In this document: positions 2,386 to 32,203 of the stretch, piece by piece | Layout of the letters: each line of letters begins with the position of its first letter | How positions within the stretch are numbered: the first letter of the stretch is position 1 | IMG/VR virus record: IMGVR_UViG_3300031746_000065 | Coordinates: 1 to 40,033 of that record | Direction: 5' to 3' (one strand) | Length of the DNA stretch: 40,033 nt | Source of the DNA: a virus | Made by a program: the position numbers and the translations under genes | The notes under the pieces: model-generated | Told to the model about the DNA's origin: nothing | Databases searched by the model: none | What the model saw: the letters and a program-made list of their open reading frames with translations, nothing else

Positions 2386-2723
2386 TAGACTGCGTATGCC
2401 TCACCTGAGATCGTGATAACCAGCTTGTTGGTGGTGCCGGTGGTGATGGCGTTAAGCAGCTTGGTGGGGGCAATCCTCCACGATCCGTACAGGTCGATGT
2501 AAGAAGCAGCGGGCACGCTGACGTTCTTGAGTAGCTCCGTTCCCGCCGTCTGGTCGCCTGTTGTGGACAGGCACACCGAAACGGGCTGCGCCACGGTGTC
2601 GATGTTGGCGACGTGAATGTGCCTCACGATGTAGAAGATAGTTGCGCCGGGGGCGGCGAAGCAGTCAGCAATCGACGTGGTGACTAGCTTCGGTGGGCAC
2701 AACAGGATAAATGTTCCGGGCAT
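2385..2723 (-). CDS. Small beta-rich virion protein
   Basis: This 112-residue protein is dominated by short beta strands separated by Gly, Ser and Thr turns, for example FYIVRHIHVANIDTVAQPVSV and NKLVITISGEAYAV. The pattern resembles small phage head or tail proteins with a jelly-roll or sandwich fold. AAGGAGGAACGAA gives a strong ribosome site for the ATG. It follows the tail fibre gene at 15 nt. A structural or fibre-associated role is inferred from context; the family is not recognised. Confidence 0.6.
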   Translation of the reverse strand: MPGTFILLCPPKLVTTSIADCFAAPGATIFYIVRHIHVANIDTVAQPVSVCLSTTGDQTAGTELLKNVSVPAASYIDLYGSWRIAPTKLLNAITTGTTNKLVITISGEAYAV

Positions 2724-2737
2724 TTCGTTCCTCCTTC

Positions 2738-5374
2738 TTAGGCTTCTCTCACAGTCATCCGCACGGTCAGGCCCTTGGCCGCTGTAGTCTGGATGGCGTC
2801 GATATCGATGGTGATGATGTCACCTGCCGCGAGCGTGGTTGTGGTCAGTACCGGCGCGGTCGCCGCCGTGCGCGAGGTCTTCTCCGCCGTGTCGATGGTG
2901 ATCTTGTTCGTGGTCATAATCGTGGTGCCGTTCTTGTGGACGTCGATGGTGGCTAGGTTAGTGACTCCTGCCGTGTCCACATAGGCCCCTATCTCAAGGA
3001 TTGCGCCTGCTATGGGCATCTCGAAGTCCCCGCCTACGCTTGCGAGGACGGTGTGGCTGGTAGCGGCGTCGAGGGCGCGGAGAACGATGTGCCGTGGGGG
3101 TTTAAGACTTGGTGCCAGGACTACGGTTTCGCCGTCCTCTCCCGCCTCACCTGGGGGGCCGATACCACCAGTAAAGCCCTGTTTCCCTACTGGCCCAGGA
3201 ATGGGAAAGCCATCTTCACCATCTTCGCCGTCCCAGCCAGGAATCCCCTGCGGGCCAATAGTCCCACCAGCGGGTAGTTGTTCGTAGCGAACGGCGTCTC
3301 CTGCTGCTGTTGCCGCCGCCAAACCAGTGATCTTCTGGGAGTTCATGGCGAAGGCAGCAGCGGCACCGCCGGACAGCAGGGCCATGATCTGGGCGGGTGT
3401 AAGGGCGGCGATGGCGCCGCCGGTGATCCGCCCGATAAGTCTTTGCTCGGCCACGCTAAGTTCTATGGGAGTATGATCGGCGTCAGCCTTGAGGATAGAA
3501 TTGGCGTGAAGGGTGTTCTTGTTGACCGCAAAGGGAGTGTCAAGAATCTGTAAGGGGCGGAAGGTGGGAGCATCGTCGGCACCGCTAATAGGCCCAACAA
3601 AGGTGTAGTTCGCCATCTGTGTAGGAAGTTGCAACTCTTGACCCACAAGGGACAGAAGGTTGTCCCCTAAGTCTGTGGTGATGGTGACGGCTGCGTGGTG
3701 GACACCGGGGAGGGCCTCGTGGGTGGACATGCGTTCGTCTGTGCTGTGCGTCCCTGCCAGCAATACGTCCCCGCTGGTATTAGCCCCCATCTGGAGGGCA
3801 CCCGCAACCTTGGTGTAATCGGCGTAAGTCCCGTACTCCTTGATTCCATACTGAGTGCAGTTGCGGATAGAGCCCCCGTCGATAGCTGTACGGAGGATGG
3901 TCCCCGCGCCACTCGAACGATACAGGGCGATCCCGTCCCAGGCGCAGGTGTCGATGGTCGGATTGTCGATGGTAACGTCGGCGATATTCCCCGCACCGTT
4001 CACCAGAAGGTAGATGCCTCCCTGCGGACTAGCGGTTGACCGAACACCCGCAAGATTCACTCTGCTGATATCAAAGGCCGTGGCTTCGATGGTGAAGTTG
4101 TAGTAGCCCACGCTCGCATCACAGTGGACATTGAAGACATCTATATCTGTAACCGCAGCATAGCCACTGTTGATCGAGAGGGGCTTGCCGCCAACTATCA
4201 GGCCGTTGTTCAGTTGAACGTGGGAACAACTGTCGAGGGAGAGACCGGCACCACAACCGTCGATGCTGAAGTTGGAGAGGACTATCCCGTGGATAGTCCC
4301 CAGGTCTATGCCGTTCTCTACCGCATCCTGAGAGATGATGTTGTTGCCGACGATGTGCCGTTTAGTCGTGCCCGCGGTCTCGTGGATCATAAAGTTGCGC
4401 CAGCAATCGGTGAGCAGAACGTTGGAGAACGCGATATGGTGGCAGGTCTCGATGTTGAGACCCCGACTGTACCCACCGATGACCTCAACGTTCTTGATAA
4501 CGGAAGCGTAGCAGGTCTCTAGTCGGATGCAGTTGTTGGCGATATCGCCGCCGTTCGTTCCGGCCCTTATGCCGTCAGCCGTGATCCCACTTATCTTGAC
4601 GTGATGCTTGCCGATGGCCATGATCAGGTCAGCGTTCGTCTTGTCGGACTTCTTGAATGTTGTGCCCCCTAGGCCATCGCCTTTCAGGTGGATATTGCTG
4701 TCCAGGCTGAAGCCAGTGGCGCTACAGGTGATTGTTTTGCCTACTACTTGGAGAATCCCCCCGCCCAAAGCGGTGAGAGCCGCGACAGCGAGATTCAACT
4801 GTGTTTCGTCGTCGGTGCCGTCGCAGGTGTAATCTGTGAAGCCTTTGCAGTCTGCCGAAGCGTCAACCGCTGCGACAACCTTGGTGGCAACCTTGAGGCC
4901 CTTCACCAATTCAGTATCACGGGTGATGGTCCCGGGAAGGTCGCTATCCTGAATCGCTGCAAAGGCTGCCTCTGTTGCAGCAGAGGCTCGTAGAACCTGG
5001 CCCGCTGTGAGACCGGAGACGGTCTGGGATGGCCCTAGACCCGCTGTAGTAGCCAGGACGTGCGCTCCAGGGGTTCCGGGGGTTGCTGGCTCCCACTCGC
5101 CCGTTGAGGCATTGTAGGTCAGGACATAGGCGGTCGTAGGCGGTGTTGAGGAGATGGGGACGCCCTGAAGACTCCTAGCCCCCGTCAAGTCGCTCTCGGT
5201 GCCGTCGGAGCCGCGCTGGTGCAGGTGGTATTCGCCAATGACCAACTTCTCGAACAGGCGCGTGCTCCCGACGACAAACCCTTCAGCCGTCGGGTGGAAA
5301 CCATTGAGACGGGTCGTGAGATCGCGTAGGGCCGCCTCTAGCCTCGTGAGGCGTTGAGTCTCGACGCCGTTCAC
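2738..5374 (-). CDS. Tail fibre/receptor-binding protein with beta-helix and collagen-like segment
   Basis: This 878-residue protein has several visible parts. First is an N-terminal coiled coil (ETQRLTRLEAALRDLTTRL), which would attach or trimerise. A linker of fibre-like repeats follows. Residues of roughly 170-545 form a right-handed parallel beta-helix of the pectate-lyase type, seen as repeated short strands with Asn, Asp and Gly turns (ADVTIDNPTIDTCAWDGIALY). A further fibre-like region leads to a collagen-like Gly-X-Y segment (GPQGIPGWDGEDGEDG), and a beta-sandwich C-terminus completes the protein. This is the layout of receptor-binding fibres or tailspikes, which recognise and may cut surface polysaccharide. 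The GTG start overlaps the previous stop (GTGA). Whether the helix is enzymatic cannot be told from the sequence. Confidence 0.85.
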   Translation of the reverse strand: MNGVETQRLTRLEAALRDLTTRLNGFHPTAEGFVVGSTRLFEKLVIGEYHLHQRGSDGTESDLTGARSLQGVPISSTPPTTAYVLTYNASTGEWEPATPGTPGAHVLATTAGLGPSQTVSGLTAGQVLRASAATEAAFAAIQDSDLPGTITRDTELVKGLKVATKVVAAVDASADCKGFTDYTCDGTDDETQLNLAVAALTALGGGILQVVGKTITCSATGFSLDSNIHLKGDGLGGTTFKKSDKTNADLIMAIGKHHVKISGITADGIRAGTNGGDIANNCIRLETCYASVIKNVEVIGGYSRGLNIETCHHIAFSNVLLTDCWRNFMIHETAGTTKRHIVGNNIISQDAVENGIDLGTIHGIVLSNFSIDGCGAGLSLDSCSHVQLNNGLIVGGKPLSINSGYAAVTDIDVFNVHCDASVGYYNFTIEATAFDISRVNLAGVRSTASPQGGIYLLVNGAGNIADVTIDNPTIDTCAWDGIALYRSSGAGTILRTAIDGGSIRNCTQYGIKEYGTYADYTKVAGALQMGANTSGDVLLAGTHSTDERMSTHEALPGVHHAAVTITTDLGDNLLSLVGQELQLPTQMANYTFVGPISGADDAPTFRPLQILDTPFAVNKNTLHANSILKADADHTPIELSVAEQRLIGRITGGAIAALTPAQIMALLSGGAAAAFAMNSQKITGLAAATAAGDAVRYEQLPAGGTIGPQGIPGWDGEDGEDGFPIPGPVGKQGFTGGIGPPGEAGEDGETVVLAPSLKPPRHIVLRALDAATSHTVLASVGGDFEMPIAGAILEIGAYVDTAGVTNLATIDVHKNGTTIMTTNKITIDTAEKTSRTAATAPVLTTTTLAAGDIITIDIDAIQTTAAKGLTVRMTVREA

Positions 5375-8049
5375 GCTACATCCCCGCGTCGCATGGAGAC
5401 TATTGCGACACCAACGGGCTCCTCGTATCCCTTCTGTCGGACAGTCGCTAGGGCGACACCGTAGATGATCATGTTCAGCATCGTCCCCTTGATCGGGTGC
5501 CGGACCTGGACGACCCCAGCGTTCTCCCGCGCCTTCAGTTCGTCGTACAGCGTTACGCCCGCCCTGCTACCCTTGGTGTCGTCCAGGTTAATGGTTGCCT
5601 TAACAGCCTCAGCGTCGTCGGGTTTTGCCTCGCCGTAGACGCCTGCGAAGGTGATCTCCGGCGGCGTGGCGTCCGGAGTGAACCCCGCCGTCGCCGTCCC
5701 GACATACTTGAGGCGAATCCGGCGGGCCGTGAGGTTGGAGGCAGCTGTGAAGTAGCACTTGCTCACGCCATCGGCGGTAATGTCCAAGCCGACCTGGACG
5801 AAGGTTCCCCCATCCCGACTAGCGAACACCTGCCACTTGAACGTTGCCCCTGGCATCTGCCGGGTGATAACCTTCACCATCCGCAACCGCACCTCAGCGT
5901 CCTCGGCTAGGATGATCTCGCGTTCGTAGATGGTCGTTACCAACGAGGCGTTCCCAAAAGTCCCGCCAGTAGGTTCCCCACCCTGCTTCAGGACGATGTA
6001 GGCCAGGTCGGTGCCCCAGCCGAACCAGAGGTAACGGTTGGAGTCGAGGTAGACGGTCTTGATGGCGTTCGTTGTGGAGATCAGGCAGTCCCAGACCAGC
6101 TCGCCCTCCTCGGTCAACTTGCCGTGCATGAGGAGGTAGTTCGTGCCGTCGTAGGCTGCGTGGTAAACGTGGTCGCCGCAGAAGGCCGAGCCGTAGTGCT
6201 TCAGGTTCAGGGGTTCGTTGGTGGTCTCGATGGCCTTCACGTAGAACCGGTCGGCGTCGGGGTCAACGCGCTTGTGCGCCCCGTACTGCCAGCGCCAGAA
6301 GCCGTCGGCGCTAGGATAGAAGATGAATGAGGCCATCCGTAGAGTATTCTTGCCGTTGTCAGCGTCCTTGAGGCCGCCCAGGAGGGGGAGTTGCTGCTTG
6401 CTGGTCGCCACGCCGTCGAACATGTACATGCCGTCGGTGGCGCAGACGGCAAGCTCATCGCTCCACTCCACAAGGTCGGTGATCACCACGTCTGGCGACC
6501 CGACGGCGTAATCCGCAACGCCGCCATACTCAGCGCCCCAGTTGTCGAGGTTGGTGATGTCATCGGCGGAGCAAAGAGAGACGTAGCGATTGAAGTAGGC
6601 ACGGGCGAGTTTGTTGCCCTTGACACAGAAATGCCGCGCCGCGAGGCCGTAGTTTGGCGTCCAGGTGTCAGTTGCTGCGGGGACGGCGACGGTGGTTAGC
6701 GTTTGAGCGTCAGCAAATTCGCCCAGTGGTACACGCCACTTGGAGACCCACTGAGCAGGCTTGCCAACCTGCGGCGTACCACTACCTGCGGCAAAGGCTA
6801 CATAATGGTAGGTCTGCCCCACCAGGTTTACGTCTTGGTAGGTTCCGATGGTAAATCCGTCCGAGTCCAATGATTGGATACGATCCGTTGCGTTGGCGAG
6901 GTTGGCCATGAACTGGGTAGCATCGCCGGTGAGACTGGCATTTCTGTGAACGAAATAGCCGTAGAGATAGCCGCCGATCATCACGTGCGTAGGTTGAAAT
7001 CCGACGCCAGTTATGGGTCGACTATCAGCACCAGTGCCAATATAGGTTCCTGTCGCCAGAACACCGGTCGCCTTTCCGAGAGCAACCCAGTAATAAGTAA
7101 CTCCTGCTCCGTTGACCCTGGCATCAGTACCGACCTGGAAACCATCGCCTGTAAAAGCCTGAATGTAGTCAGCCTGAGATGCACCGATGCTGCCCAGAAG
7201 GAACGAGGCATCGCCAACGAACGTGGCCCAGTGGGTGACAGGGAAATTGGAGGCGCACATGACATGGACGACGGCAGGCGTGAAACCAGCACCCGTAATG
7301 ACTCTATTGTCTGCCCCATCGCCTGTGTATGTTCCTGTCGCTACGGCTCCTGCGGTTGCCTTCCACGCCTGCCAGTAGTAGACGACGGCATTGGTGTTTA
7401 CTGTCGCGTGTGCTCCGACACTGAAACCGTCAGCGTCCAGACTCGTGATCGCGGTCGCCACGAGCGCACTATTGTCAAGAAGTTTGCTGTTGGTGCCAGC
7501 TATGTTGGTGGTCTTGATAACTGCGTACTGGGCAGTATCGCCCTTGATTAAGACGGCCGCAGGTTGGAAGCCGAGGCCCGTGATGGCCTTGGTGGTGCCG
7601 TTGCCTGTGTAAGTGCCCTGAGCGAAGACCGTGACGTTGGAAAACGTCTTTGTCTCCGCCAGCGTCCGGTCGGAGAGTTTGACCTTGAATGACTTAGCCC
7701 CGGCCAGCGCGTAGACGTACTTGCTCGACGCCGCATCCAGCGCCTCGAAGAACCTCTCGACGGGCGTGGTGTTCCCTGTGAGCGTGACGGTGCCGATTGT
7801 GGGACGGGGCTTTAGCGCAAATGGGTCTTGGTGCGAGCAATTCTCCGAATAGTAGTACCCAAACCTCCCCATCTCTGTAGTTTCCCCCATCCCTCCACCC
7901 CAGAATTTTCTTACATGACGAACTGGGGTGCCGGCGGGTGAGGCATCATCGCTCTCGCCTTGCTCGTCCCAAGAGAGGAGTGGATAAGGGCGCTCGTTCG
8001 CACCGTCGGCGTCGGCTATCGTCAGTTGGTCGGCCAGCGTTCTAGGCAT
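5371..8049 (-). CDS. Tail nozzle-like (T7 gp12-type) protein with three repeated inserted domains
   Basis: This 892-residue virion protein follows the adaptor gene, the place of the T7 tail tubular B (nozzle) gene. N- and C-terminal parts are rich in beta strands with WSDELAVCATDGMYMFDG-like blades, suggesting a propeller. Residues of about 145-420 hold three tandem copies of a 90-residue domain, each beginning 'GTYTGxG' and containing 'ITGxGFxPxxV' and 'DGFxVGxxxxVN', with a final 'VxYYWxAxxxxxG'. These look like the DUF7483-type repeats of phage tail proteins. The start ATG lies directly after the TAG of the adaptor gene. The nozzle role is inferred from order and size. Confidence 0.7.
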   Translation of the reverse strand: MPRTLADQLTIADADGANERPYPLLSWDEQGESDDASPAGTPVRHVRKFWGGGMGETTEMGRFGYYYSENCSHQDPFALKPRPTIGTVTLTGNTTPVERFFEALDAASSKYVYALAGAKSFKVKLSDRTLAETKTFSNVTVFAQGTYTGNGTTKAITGLGFQPAAVLIKGDTAQYAVIKTTNIAGTNSKLLDNSALVATAITSLDADGFSVGAHATVNTNAVVYYWQAWKATAGAVATGTYTGDGADNRVITGAGFTPAVVHVMCASNFPVTHWATFVGDASFLLGSIGASQADYIQAFTGDGFQVGTDARVNGAGVTYYWVALGKATGVLATGTYIGTGADSRPITGVGFQPTHVMIGGYLYGYFVHRNASLTGDATQFMANLANATDRIQSLDSDGFTIGTYQDVNLVGQTYHYVAFAAGSGTPQVGKPAQWVSKWRVPLGEFADAQTLTTVAVPAATDTWTPNYGLAARHFCVKGNKLARAYFNRYVSLCSADDITNLDNWGAEYGGVADYAVGSPDVVITDLVEWSDELAVCATDGMYMFDGVATSKQQLPLLGGLKDADNGKNTLRMASFIFYPSADGFWRWQYGAHKRVDPDADRFYVKAIETTNEPLNLKHYGSAFCGDHVYHAAYDGTNYLLMHGKLTEEGELVWDCLISTTNAIKTVYLDSNRYLWFGWGTDLAYIVLKQGGEPTGGTFGNASLVTTIYEREIILAEDAEVRLRMVKVITRQMPGATFKWQVFASRDGGTFVQVGLDITADGVSKCYFTAASNLTARRIRLKYVGTATAGFTPDATPPEITFAGVYGEAKPDDAEAVKATINLDDTKGSRAGVTLYDELKARENAGVVQVRHPIKGTMLNMIIYGVALATVRQKGYEEPVGVAIVSMRRGDVA

Positions 8050-12014: not shown

Positions 12015-12651
12015 CGATTTTGTTACTCACCTATAAGGCGGGGCTGGTCATTTCTGCCAGCCTCTTTGCATCGCTGCAAAGTCCCGACCATATCTTCAGC
12101 CTGTTGGCCGTTCGGCGTATGGTCTGTGAGGATCCGGTTGCAAGATTTCTGCGCTTTCAACGCTCGAATAAGTTTTAACTCGCCGTCTGAGCAAGGCGAT
12201 GGCCCAACCCGTAGACGACTCTGAATGAACTCTTGCAGCAAAAGTCCCTCATCCTGTTTCGCCACAAGATAGGGAAGAATCGCAGCAAGTGCCTTTTCGA
12301 GTCGTCTGTAGCCAATCACCATCACGTCCTTGACTGGACTGTGGCGTGGGTTGTGACGTTTCCTAGTTTGAATCCGGCAACCTACCCCCAGGCGATGCCA
12401 GATTCCCGCCACCTTCTCGGCAAGAACAAAGTTAGAATTGGTGATTGTCAGATAGGGATGAGCGCCGTTGCGGGGTTCAAGATCGATGTGCATACAGCCT
12501 TCACCGTCTATGACTCCTGCAAGCCAGCCCATTTCGGCCTCGCTAACCGTTTCCTGCGGATTGACCGCACCGTCGGATTGTTGCATCATCAGCACCTCTG
12601 GATACTCGGTGTTCCCCGCATACAGCCGAATTTATGCTCAGCAACACATTT
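12015..12651 (-). ncRNA. Group I intron in the major capsid gene
   Basis: The 637-nt intron is supported in several ways. The coding sequence stops at TAA right after codon 23 and resumes in frame at 12014. The 5' splice site lies after U12652, and a P1 helix (12658-12636) pairs GCUCGGU with GCUGAGC, giving the hallmark U-G pair (U12652 with G12642). The intron ends with G (12015). P7 strands are GACCAUA (12124-12118) and UAUGGUC (12092-12086). P8 can form between them. P9 is UUUGCA-GCGA-UGCAAA (12080-12065) with a GNRA loop. It houses the LAGLIDADG gene. An intein is excluded because stop codons interrupt the frame. Confidence 0.85.
12023..12589 (-). CDS. Intron-encoded LAGLIDADG homing endonuclease
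   Basis: This 188-residue protein has the LAGLIDADG-class motif WLAGVIDGEGCMHI near residue 22. After it comes a beta strand with HPYLTITNSN, then a helix EKVAGIWHRLG, the usual order of the family. One motif copy suggests a homodimer. Such enzymes cut intron-lacking capsid alleles to spread the intron by homing. AGAGG lies about 5 nt before this ATG; a GTG six nt upstream is also open. The C-terminal tail is encoded by the intron's P7-P9 core, so protein and RNA structure share bases. The stop lies 8 nt before the 3' splice site. Confidence 0.85.
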   Translation of the reverse strand: MMQQSDGAVNPQETVSEAEMGWLAGVIDGEGCMHIDLEPRNGAHPYLTITNSNFVLAEKVAGIWHRLGVGCRIQTRKRHNPRHSPVKDVMVIGYRRLEKALAAILPYLVAKQDEGLLLQEFIQSRLRVGPSPCSDGELKLIRALKAQKSCNRILTDHTPNGQQAEDMVGTLQRCKEAGRNDQPRLIGE

Positions 12652-12721
12652 ACCGAGCCTTGGCGATTACGATGTTCTGCGCGTTCTCCAACTGCCCGGT
12701 AGTCGCAGTCTGGATTGCCAT
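12652..12721 (-). CDS. Major capsid protein, exon 1
   Basis: This exon encodes the first 23 residues (MAIQTATTGQLENAQNIVIA, then KAR) plus one base of the next codon. The same opening pattern is found in the N-terminus of this HK97 capsid family, which continues directly into an 'RFTMEHN' segment; here that follows only after removal of 637 nt. An AAGGAGGTAATAA ribosome site makes the start certain. Without splicing translation would end at the TAA after Arg23. Confidence 0.85.
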
Positions 12722-13654: not shown

Positions 13655-14200
13655 ATGACGAAGGGCCTTTACGAGCGAACACCCGAAATCCGTGAGAAGA
13701 TGCGGCAAGCCGCCCTTGGCAAGGGCATTGGCAGAAAGCCCTTCCTCGGTCATAAGCATTCCCCTGAGACACGAGAGAAGATACGCCAGGCCATGCTTGG
13801 CCAGAAACATCTTCTCGGCCACAAGCACTCGCCTGAAACACGTGAACGTCAGCGCCAGGGCCGTCTTCGCCATCGGTATCCGACAAAGATGACCTCCATC
13901 GAGTGCCTTCTGCGTGACGAGTTTAAGAAACGCCGCCTCCATTTCGAGATGCACAAGACGATGTTCGGTAGGTGGCAACCCGACTTCGTATTCGAGCAAG
14001 CCCACCTCATAGTTCAGGCCGACGGGGATTATTGGCACTCGCGGCCTAACAGGAAGGCAGACGATATCGCCTTCAACAAAGCCGCCCATGACGCAGGATG
14101 GAACGTCTGGCGCTTTGGGGAACGAGAAATTCAGATGCACTCCGCTGCCTGCGCCAGGGCCGTTGCTCGGTTTGTTAGAGATCATCTTCGTCCCCAATGA
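13655..14200 (+). CDS. Free-standing Vsr-like homing endonuclease with NUMOD3 repeats
   Basis: This 181-residue protein has two parts. Residues 1-75 hold NUMOD3-type DNA-binding repeats, seen as 'HSPETREKIRQAMLG' and 'HSPETRERQRQG'. Residues 80-175 form a DUF559/Vsr-like nuclease domain with FEMHKTMFGRWQPDFVFEQ (Asp of the active site) and HLIVQADGDYWHSRP, and WNVWRFGEREI near the end. This is the design of the I-Bth0305I group of phage homing endonucleases. It lies opposite in strand to the scaffold and internal-protein genes and stops next to a hairpin terminator. The upstream open frame is ignored because the promoter and domain begin here. Confidence 0.8.
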   Translation: MTKGLYERTPEIREKMRQAALGKGIGRKPFLGHKHSPETREKIRQAMLGQKHLLGHKHSPETRERQRQGRLRHRYPTKMTSIECLLRDEFKKRRLHFEMHKTMFGRWQPDFVFEQAHLIVQADGDYWHSRPNRKADDIAFNKAAHDAGWNVWRFGEREIQMHSAACARAVARFVRDHLRPQ

Positions 14201-20850: not shown

Positions 20851-21426
20851 ATGCCAAGGGGAGTTTACGAACGAACGCCTGAATTCGCAGAGAAATGCCG
20901 CCAGCGCATGCTTGGCCGTCCCTCCTGTCGTCTCGGCCATAAAGAGTCCCCAGAAACCCGCGAGAAGATGCGCCAAGCCCACCTTGGCCGACCGATGTCC
21001 CCGGAGACACGGGAGAGAATGCACCAGGCCATGATCAAACGATGGGCTGACCCTGAAGCAGGAGAAAAACTTCGCCAGGCACTTCGGCAGGCCAATCTTG
21101 GACGGCACCATTCTCCTGAGGTGCGAGAGAGGATACGGCAGGCCCAACTTGGTAAGATAAACTCCCCTGAAGCGCGAGAGAAAATGAGTCAAGCGCATCA
21201 AAAGGGCGGCTGGATCGACAGAAATGGGTATCATGTCGCAATGAGACGCGGGCAGGTTTACCTCGCCCATCGGGTTGTCTGGGAGGAGGCGAACGGCTCT
21301 ATCCCTAAGGGCCACGTCGTTCACCACATCAACGGTGTCTCCGGCGACAATCGCCTTGAGAACCTGCAAATGATGCCCAGGCCAGAACACATGGCGCTCC
21401 ACAGACGGTTGACCTTGGCGCAGTAA
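20851..21426 (+). CDS. Free-standing HNH homing endonuclease with NUMOD3 repeats
   Basis: This 191-residue protein starts with a row of NUMOD3 DNA-binding repeats (SPETREKMRQAHLG, SPETRERMHQAM, SPEVRERIRQAQLG, SPEAREKMSQ). It ends with an HNH nuclease domain: GYHVAMRRGQVYLAHRVVWE, then the HHINGVSGDNRLENLQMM core with its His pair and Asn. These enzymes nick or cut DNA at a site near their own gene and spread by homing. It is on the plus strand between minus-strand genes and ends 3 nt before the next stop, a typical inserted selfish gene. Confidence 0.85.
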   Translation: MPRGVYERTPEFAEKCRQRMLGRPSCRLGHKESPETREKMRQAHLGRPMSPETRERMHQAMIKRWADPEAGEKLRQALRQANLGRHHSPEVRERIRQAQLGKINSPEAREKMSQAHQKGGWIDRNGYHVAMRRGQVYLAHRVVWEEANGSIPKGHVVHHINGVSGDNRLENLQMMPRPEHMALHRRLTLAQ

Positions 21427-31642: not shown

Positions 31643-32098
31643 CTATCTGGTTCCTCCTGAGTTCATAGTGACCTCCTTGCGCTTTCTATAGGCTCTGTCG
31701 TTAAGGACATTGCAGCGCCTACAATTCCGTCTTCCGCTAGGTTCTATGTAGGTGTTGAACAAATCATAGGGATGGCCCCTTGGACAGTGGGTTTTTCGGG
31801 CATTGCTTGCGGATGCCCCATTGCCTCGTAGGATATTTTCGCGCATCGTGACCGGCTCTAGGTGGCGGGGATTGACGCAAGCGCGGTTGCGGCAGAGGTG
31901 ATCCAGTGTCAGGCCCCCAGGAATGGGGCCAACCAAAAGCTCATAACTGAAACGGTACGCCTGAACTTTCAGAGTAGGATTGGGCCAGAAAGACCCATAG
32001 CCATATTTGCCAAGAGAGCCTTTCCAAACCCAACAACCATTGGGGAGGGCGACTACTTTAGACCAGAAGCGTTCGATTGGGGTATACTGAGGATGCAT
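31643..32098 (-). CDS. Free-standing HNH endonuclease
   Basis: This 151-residue protein (start MHPQYTPIERFWSKV) has GCWVWKGSLGKYGYGSF, then RFSYELLVGPIPGGLTLDHL, then CRNRACVNPRHLEPVT. These are the hallmarks of the HNH_3-type phage endonucleases, with a Cys-supported HNH motif. The start at 32098 has GGAGG 6 nt upstream; a longer reading from 32176 is possible. It lies between early genes with a promoter of its own. It probably cuts DNA near its own insertion site. Confidence 0.85.
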   Translation of the reverse strand: MHPQYTPIERFWSKVVALPNGCWVWKGSLGKYGYGSFWPNPTLKVQAYRFSYELLVGPIPGGLTLDHLCRNRACVNPRHLEPVTMRENILRGNGASASNARKTHCPRGHPYDLFNTYIEPSGRRNCRRCNVLNDRAYRKRKEVTMNSGGTR

Positions 32099-32174
32099 CG
32101 GGAACCTCCATTTCTCGGTGCCATGCGGTCGGAGGCTAACCCCCTCGCGGCCGCGTTCTCTTACCAGCACACCC

Positions 32175-32203
32175 ATTCTAGCACACTCTCTCGTATCTGT
32201 CTA
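32175..32203 (-). promoter_or_regulatory. Promoter of the HNH gene
   Basis: TAGACA (32203-32198) and TAGAAT (32180-32175) are separated by 17 nt, and TGC precedes the -10 (extended type). It lies 77 nt upstream of the chosen start. The longest in-frame reading would start at the end of the -10, so the shorter start is favoured, though a GTG five bases downstream could be used from a leaderless transcript. Confidence 0.65.

Follow-up and report, generated by a model that had tools for sequence, protein, structure and literature searches.

The window, that is the whole 40,033-nt stretch of a metagenomic tailed phage (IMG/VR record IMGVR_UViG_3300031746_000065), carries a major capsid protein (MCP) gene on the minus strand that is split into two exons by a group I intron containing an endonuclease gene (Table 1). 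Gene order in the window placed terminase and portal-like genes, together with an ORF in the scaffold position, upstream of the MCP. The joined exons formed a single open frame of 292 aa ending in a stop codon, and this in-frame join agreed exactly with the intron borders of 12651 and 12015 proposed in the initial annotation. The spliced exon junction is predicted to read CGGU^UCACAAUGG. The unspliced frame met a stop codon right at the junction (U|AA) and further stops after it, so that unspliced RNA would yield the 23-aa exon 1 peptide only.

The spliced product matched Phage_capsid_4 (PF25209) in Pfam above the cutoff (E 6e-12) and weakly matched PHROG 267 'major head protein' (E 2.4e-5). 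The gene had initially been described as encoding an HK97 capsid, of which the MCP identity was supported by the Phage_capsid_4 match while the assignment to HK97 as a sequence family was weak, the TIGR01554 score of the spliced MCP being 16.6 bits and under the cutoff of 27.5.

Table 1. Positions of the MCP exons, the intron with its core helices and the intron-encoded endonuclease in the window
Feature	Position	Strand	Remarks
MCP exon 1	12721-12652	minus	70 nt: MAIQTATTGQLENAQNIVIAKAR (23 codons) plus U, the first nt of codon 24; homologous N-termini
P1 exon strand GCUCGGU	12652-12658	minus	pairs with GCUGAGC (12642-12636); U-G at the splice site
Group I intron	12651-12015	minus	637 nt; G at 12015 is the terminal G
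P1 internal guide sequence GCUGAGC	12636-12642	minus	pairs with the end of exon 1
P3 5' strand UUCGGC	12625-12630	minus	pairs with GCCGAA (12116-12111)
P4	12620-12615 with 12560-12555	minus	
P5	12610-12607 (ACCG) with 12567-12564 (CGGU)	minus	supported by homologs
LAGLIDADG endonuclease ORF, single-motif	12023-12595	minus	190 aa from GTG 12595
P6	12549-12545 (CGGUU) with 12139-12135 (AACCG)	minus	endonuclease domain within its loop
P7	12124-12119 with 12091-12086	minus	covariation
P3 3' strand	12116-12111	minus	
P8	12110-12106 with 12101-12097	minus	
P9 hairpin	12081-12064	minus	GCGA (GNRA) loop; covariation
P9.1	12062-12057 with 12047-12042	minus	covariation
MCP exon 2	12014-11206	minus	809 nt, including the stop codon

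The presence of a LAGLIDADG gene inside the intron, as first annotated, was borne out by an intact ORF with the motif WLAGVIDGEG and a PF14528 match exceeding the cutoff (E 4e-6). An alternative start codon, ATG 12589, is better spaced than the GTG, with AGAGG at 12600-12596 and a spacing of 6 nt. Nine residues were invariant in 34 endonuclease homologs (L25, A26, G27, D30, G31, E32, G33, L110 and K113), of which E32 is the acidic residue at the catalytic position. The folded domain comprised residues 19-152 (12541-12140), with AF2 pLDDT values of 93-98 over residues 21-150, and the enzyme probably works as a homodimer. Values dropped to 55-63 from about residue 152, where the ORF enters P6' (12139), and because this drop falls where the ORF enters the 3' ribozyme core the last 38 residues (153-190) are probably read-through of the catalytic RNA core. 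A contribution of these core-encoded C-terminal residues to the fold was disfavored, the low pLDDT lying exactly there. ORFs overlapping the ribozyme core are a known layout (PMC3984707).

Foldseek matched the AF2 model to I-CvuI, I-MsoI and I-CreI (E about 1e-7 to 1e-6, probability 1.00), and I-MsoI and I-CvuI were also the nearest PDB sequences. The window endonuclease shares with these three enzymes the fold, one LAGLIDADG motif and a domain of about 150 aa, but identity in structural alignments was only 16-26%, and the catalytic motif ends in Glu rather than the Asp of the I-CreI group. The home genes also differ, being phage MCP genes for the window lineage and organellar group I introns for I-CreI, I-CvuI and I-MsoI, with I-CreI at home in an organellar rRNA gene. 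Used alone as a query, the window endonuclease had no match in the viral contigs, weak Caulobacter matches only among phage isolates and none among plasmids.

Relatives of the MCP were obtained from a first scan of viral contigs (24 relatives with 52-58% identity), a profile scan from which the best 80 of 494 were retained, and Chloroflexota/Dehalococcoidia metagenome-assembled genomes, which added five more relatives, all intronless. At least 100 intronless homologs (45-59% identity) were contiguous across the junction and aligned exactly at 12652/12014, as the initial annotation had anticipated. The alignment of MCP relatives contained no indel at the junction within the A-R-[YF]-T-x-E-H-N motif, and the residues flanking the junction (A22 R23 [YF]24 T25 x E27 H28 N29) were invariant or almost so. 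The conservation of MCP residues 20-29 ranked 12th among 283 windows of the protein, which is expected of a homing site. A local re-check of the capsid loci from these MCP searches found split MCPs only in the window and at one other locus, L109. No near-identical second record of the window, which is one uncultured contig, was found. Among the relatives L104-L109, five were on contigs binned as Chloroflexota/Dehalococcoidia and the intron-bearing one on a contig binned as Bathyarchaeota. These assignments are a hint at hosts and are subject to binning error, and the host of L109 is uncertain because its contig was binned into a Bathyarchaeota assembly.

Three diverged MCP genes (L109, L113 and L115) carried homologous introns at the identical nucleotide position. 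The L109 intron of 647 nt followed the same 70 nt. L113 and L115, found via the endonuclease, had MCPs with 34-37% identity in which the intron follows nucleotide 1 of the A-R-Y-T tyrosine codon. Signs of mobility included the sporadic presence of the intron and an endonuclease identity of 58-61% between the window and L109, against an MCP identity of 48%. The recurrence of introns at the same site indirectly supports the predicted site-specific cleavage of intronless alleles. Locus L112, with an endonuclease identity of 57-60% and exon 1 only on its contig, was rejected as a fifth same-site allele because the site indicated by its P1 is shifted 6 nt downstream and its contig does not include exon 2. 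A further relative, L110, was located inside an N4-gp56-type MCP (TIGR04387 E 1.9e-7, below the curated cutoff; PHROG 1357). Exon 1 of L110 includes one in-frame TAA at about 3832 (FR*QLAELGTYRKMQF), well ahead of the intron, a stop that recoding, a disrupted gene or an error in sequencing could explain. The intron-bearing L113 and the intronless L026, which belong to the same capsid family, both came from metagenome 3300022538.

A search with Rfam RF00028, as had been suggested with the first annotation, matched the full model (1-253) at 12661-12064 on the minus strand with 29.8 bits and an E of 5.5e-5. The P1 with its U-G pair, the P7 strands, the GNRA-capped P9 and the terminal G initially noted were all present, and P1 was 7 bp long. 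A longer P5 (CACCG/CGGUG) was dropped in favor of the version in Table 1, and no claim is made for a putative P10 (UGUG/CACA), which was not conserved in L109. Compensatory changes were found in 8 of the 19 pairs of P7, P9 and P9.1, where 94.4% of the cells were paired and the covariation score was reached by none of 500 shuffles. Covariation was also seen in P3 and P5, and since the helices of that comparison were picked by hand, the P7/P9/P9.1 shuffles and the P1 permutations are the fairer tests. In the latter, P1 spanned 5-9 bp across six introns, and each exon with its own guide averaged 6.8 bp compared with 3.4 bp for swapped pairs. The exon 1 ends varied among the introns with the guides varying along with them, and the true pairing total was unmatched by any of the 719 other exon/intron permutations.

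The RF00028 score was below the gathering threshold of 50 bits, as would be the case for a decayed remnant that no longer splices and has left the capsid gene broken and the phage defective. The threshold is a detection cutoff rather than a defining trait of group I introns, and the confirmed relatives L109, L112, L113 and L115 scored 27-34, while L119 and L120, two loci of the wider lineage described below, carried matches of 59.8 and 77.2. Decay is very improbable, as pairing is preserved in every core helix, the exon-dependent P1 among them, and the endonuclease ORF is unbroken and retains its catalytic motif. Both exon frames are likewise intact and conserved, and the structure is kept in divergent homologs through compensatory change. 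Chance is excluded as the origin of the pattern by the contiguous relatives, the same-position introns and the covariation.

Splicing would be unnecessary if exon 2 were translated alone from an intronic GTG at 12030 (MSNKIV-TMEHN...) by ribosomes reinitiating past the endonuclease stop. From this GTG onward the frame is indeed open, and it overlaps the stop codon of the endonuclease. The GTG is without a good ribosome site upstream, the covarying intron would be left unexplained, and the N-terminal residues that derive from exon 1, the absence of which from homologs would have argued against the initial annotation, were kept in all the capsid homologs aligned. Translation of exon 2 alone was the least credible of the explanations considered.

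It is instead highly probable (roughly 0.92), on the basis of the sequence comparisons, that the MCP gene carries a mobile self-splicing group I intron whose target for homing is a conserved N-terminal site. The intron would fold in the transcript with its guide pairing with the end of exon 1 to form P1, and from the anatomy, homology and covariation a guanosine-driven self-excision would be expected to join the exons into the message for the normal 292-aa MCP. The endonuclease would be translated from unspliced RNA and is expected to cleave MCP alleles without the intron at their conserved A-R-[YF]-T, after which repair would copy the intron in.

The initial annotation had also proposed a switch, in which retention or loss of the intron would govern head formation. 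The intron does lie in an essential late gene from which the full MCP is impossible without splicing, and the endonuclease ORF spans the ribozyme core, so that its translation could compete with folding. The overlap of ORF and core is nonetheless the known layout mentioned above, an Rfam scan of the window gave no ligand-binding or other regulatory element, and the intron was absent from most relatives. With no sign of regulated splicing in the sequence or the comparison, the switch is unsupported and about as improbable as a decayed remnant. The sporadic distribution, intact endonuclease and conserved site fit a mobile element that would be removed constitutively.

At least four homing-type nucleases were present in the phage. 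Besides the intron-encoded enzyme, these included a NUMOD3 protein with a Vsr/DUF559-like domain (13655-14197, plus strand), a NUMOD3 and HNH_3 protein (20851-21423, plus strand) and an HNH_3 protein (31646-32176, minus strand), the first two being antisense to the flanking structural genes. A tyrosine recombinase (integrase) was encoded close to the contig end (38830-39651, plus strand), and the phage may therefore be temperate.

A profile of two endonucleases retrieved L110 only, while a profile of three endonucleases opened a larger lineage in the viral contigs with 243 relatives, of which 80 were kept; dereplication at 80% identity reduced these to 61. PHROGs served to assign the host genes, and where exons were short or split the capsids identified in this way were used as tblastn queries (L141, L151, L166, L169, L176, L186, L172 and L188). 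The host gene was the MCP in L139, L131 and L153 as well, although the longest 3' ORF pointed elsewhere. In total, 56 of the 61 endonuclease relatives were located within an MCP gene or immediately next to one (L112 judged by exon 1 alone) and five were not (L117, L164, L170, L185 and L190). The MCPs represented at least nine families, namely PHROGs 1357, 267, 1328, 10/617, 371, 14242/9953, 334 and 24667 and the PF25209 type. This near restriction to the capsid genes of many unrelated phages suggests a capsid-specialized mobile element.

RF00028 missed L110, and a covariance model of the intron 3' half (R1) was therefore built from six introns. R1 detected an intron beside the endonuclease in 38 loci (E<=0.01), all 38 of which were MCP genes. 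Two of these were on the minus strand (L172 and L188), 29 were assigned by PHROG or capsid homology, and the remaining seven were settled by tblastn except for L112, which was again judged on exon 1. When R1 was run on 28 relatives that lack the intron, no match was convincing (best E 0.11). Several introns can interrupt the same gene, as the L135 MCP (2704-5911) was divided into four collinear exons and the L119 MCP (3760-6740) into three. The L166 MCP was likewise cut into several collinear exons by introns of this type. In L172 and L188 the MCP and intron were on the minus strand with the endonuclease antisense on the plus strand.

The endonuclease appeared to be free-standing beside an apparently intact MCP in L165, L174, L126, L161 and L167. 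A seemingly free-standing endonuclease was located directly upstream of an apparently intact MCP in L174, L126, L161, L167 and L192, the last from Stenotrophomonas phage StenR_269, where it sits between the scaffold and the MCP. Those isolate relatives that were only marginally detected, from Caulobacter, Streptomyces, Gordonia and Mycobacterium phages, were not beside MCP genes.

The association with capsid genes could be a sampling effect, either of capsid-rich contig collections or of endonucleases generally lying near structural genes. A control search with a profile built from non-MCP LAGLIDADG proteins yielded 76 loci after dereplication, 28 of which did have an MCP within 1.8 kb, and T5orf172 homing genes are near capsid genes in 31% of neighborhoods (PMC10448857). 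By the same test, however, an MCP was within 1.8 kb in 51 of the 61 lineage loci (Fisher 3.6e-8), and the outcome was unaffected when two control loci that lay on a lineage contig, or very close to one, were excluded. On contigs of at least 30 kb, for which a position near the MCP would arise by chance in a few per cent of cases, 19 of 22 members were at the MCP, and the introns were inside MCP genes rather than just nearby. A sampling effect is thus unlikely, although less so than the alternatives to splicing discussed above.

The endonuclease tree grouped by MCP family and needed at least 15 family changes, which makes transfer between unrelated capsid families look likely. Backbone support was weak, and the non-MCP relatives were interspersed with MCP-linked members. 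A single clean clade of MCP-linked endonucleases was rejected, as the label needed nine changes on this weakly supported tree. We consider it likely that the lineage, with a few free-standing members, specializes in MCP genes and has spread repeatedly across unrelated families, maybe through a competitive advantage. The specialism itself has good support from the comparison. A carrier might gain by cutting the capsid gene of a co-infecting phage, and this competitive reason is a guess that we regard as doubtful.

A LAGLIDADG intron in a capsid gene is already known from mycobacteriophage LittleE (Pope et al. 2013, PMC3706429), where splicing was proven by RT-PCR and the N-terminal sequence of the virion MCP (PMC3706429). 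Another capsid gene intron, that of lactococcal phage Tuc2009, is cited in the same paper (PMC3706429). The LittleE element resembles that of the window in being a group I-like MCP intron with an exon 1 ending in U, an intron ending in G and an I-CreI-like LAGLIDADG enzyme. The LittleE endonuclease is antisense, an arrangement shared by L172 and L188, whereas the window ORF, located in the P6 loop, has the same sense as the intron and continues through the core. The capsid family and insertion site of LittleE also appear to differ from those of the window, and LittleE was not among the matches listed by tblastn for three lineage endonucleases in the phage collection (E<=0.001-0.01). Text searches for capsid introns in a literature collection with few subscription papers found LittleE alone to be relevant. 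In the same collection no earlier report of such a capsid lineage was found, and its novelty is provisional. Capsid introns of the kind in the window are thus already known, and what is unexpected is the specialization of the whole lineage on capsid genes.

Other phage systems share features with the window. The T4 td, nrdB and nrdD introns and further group I introns of phages similarly interrupt an essential gene and combine self-splicing with a homing endonuclease, but the genes concerned belong to nucleotide and DNA metabolism and the enzymes are mostly of the GIY-YIG, HNH or other types (PMC12350094, PMC3984707). PhiPA3 gp210 is likewise an intron-encoded homing endonuclease associated with a gene needed for virion production, but it targets the virion RNA polymerase gene, and the interference during co-infection shown there is hypothetical for the window (PMC11620839). 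Homing genes near essential genes, including capsid genes, have been described (PMC10448857).

Phage group I introns favor nucleotide and DNA metabolism genes, a preference that has been called mysterious (PMC12350094). The initial statement that introns are rarer in capsid genes fits the published phage introns, while the opposite holds for the lineage of the window itself, with its nearly exclusive occurrence at MCP genes. A lineage nearly restricted to unrelated MCP families breaks the published pattern of gene preference, and whether capsid genes are tracked through the evolution of the DNA site, late high expression or competition during co-infection is a testable question. Metagenomic capsid surveys and structure predictions would overlook or truncate capsid genes split in this way, into up to four exons in L135.
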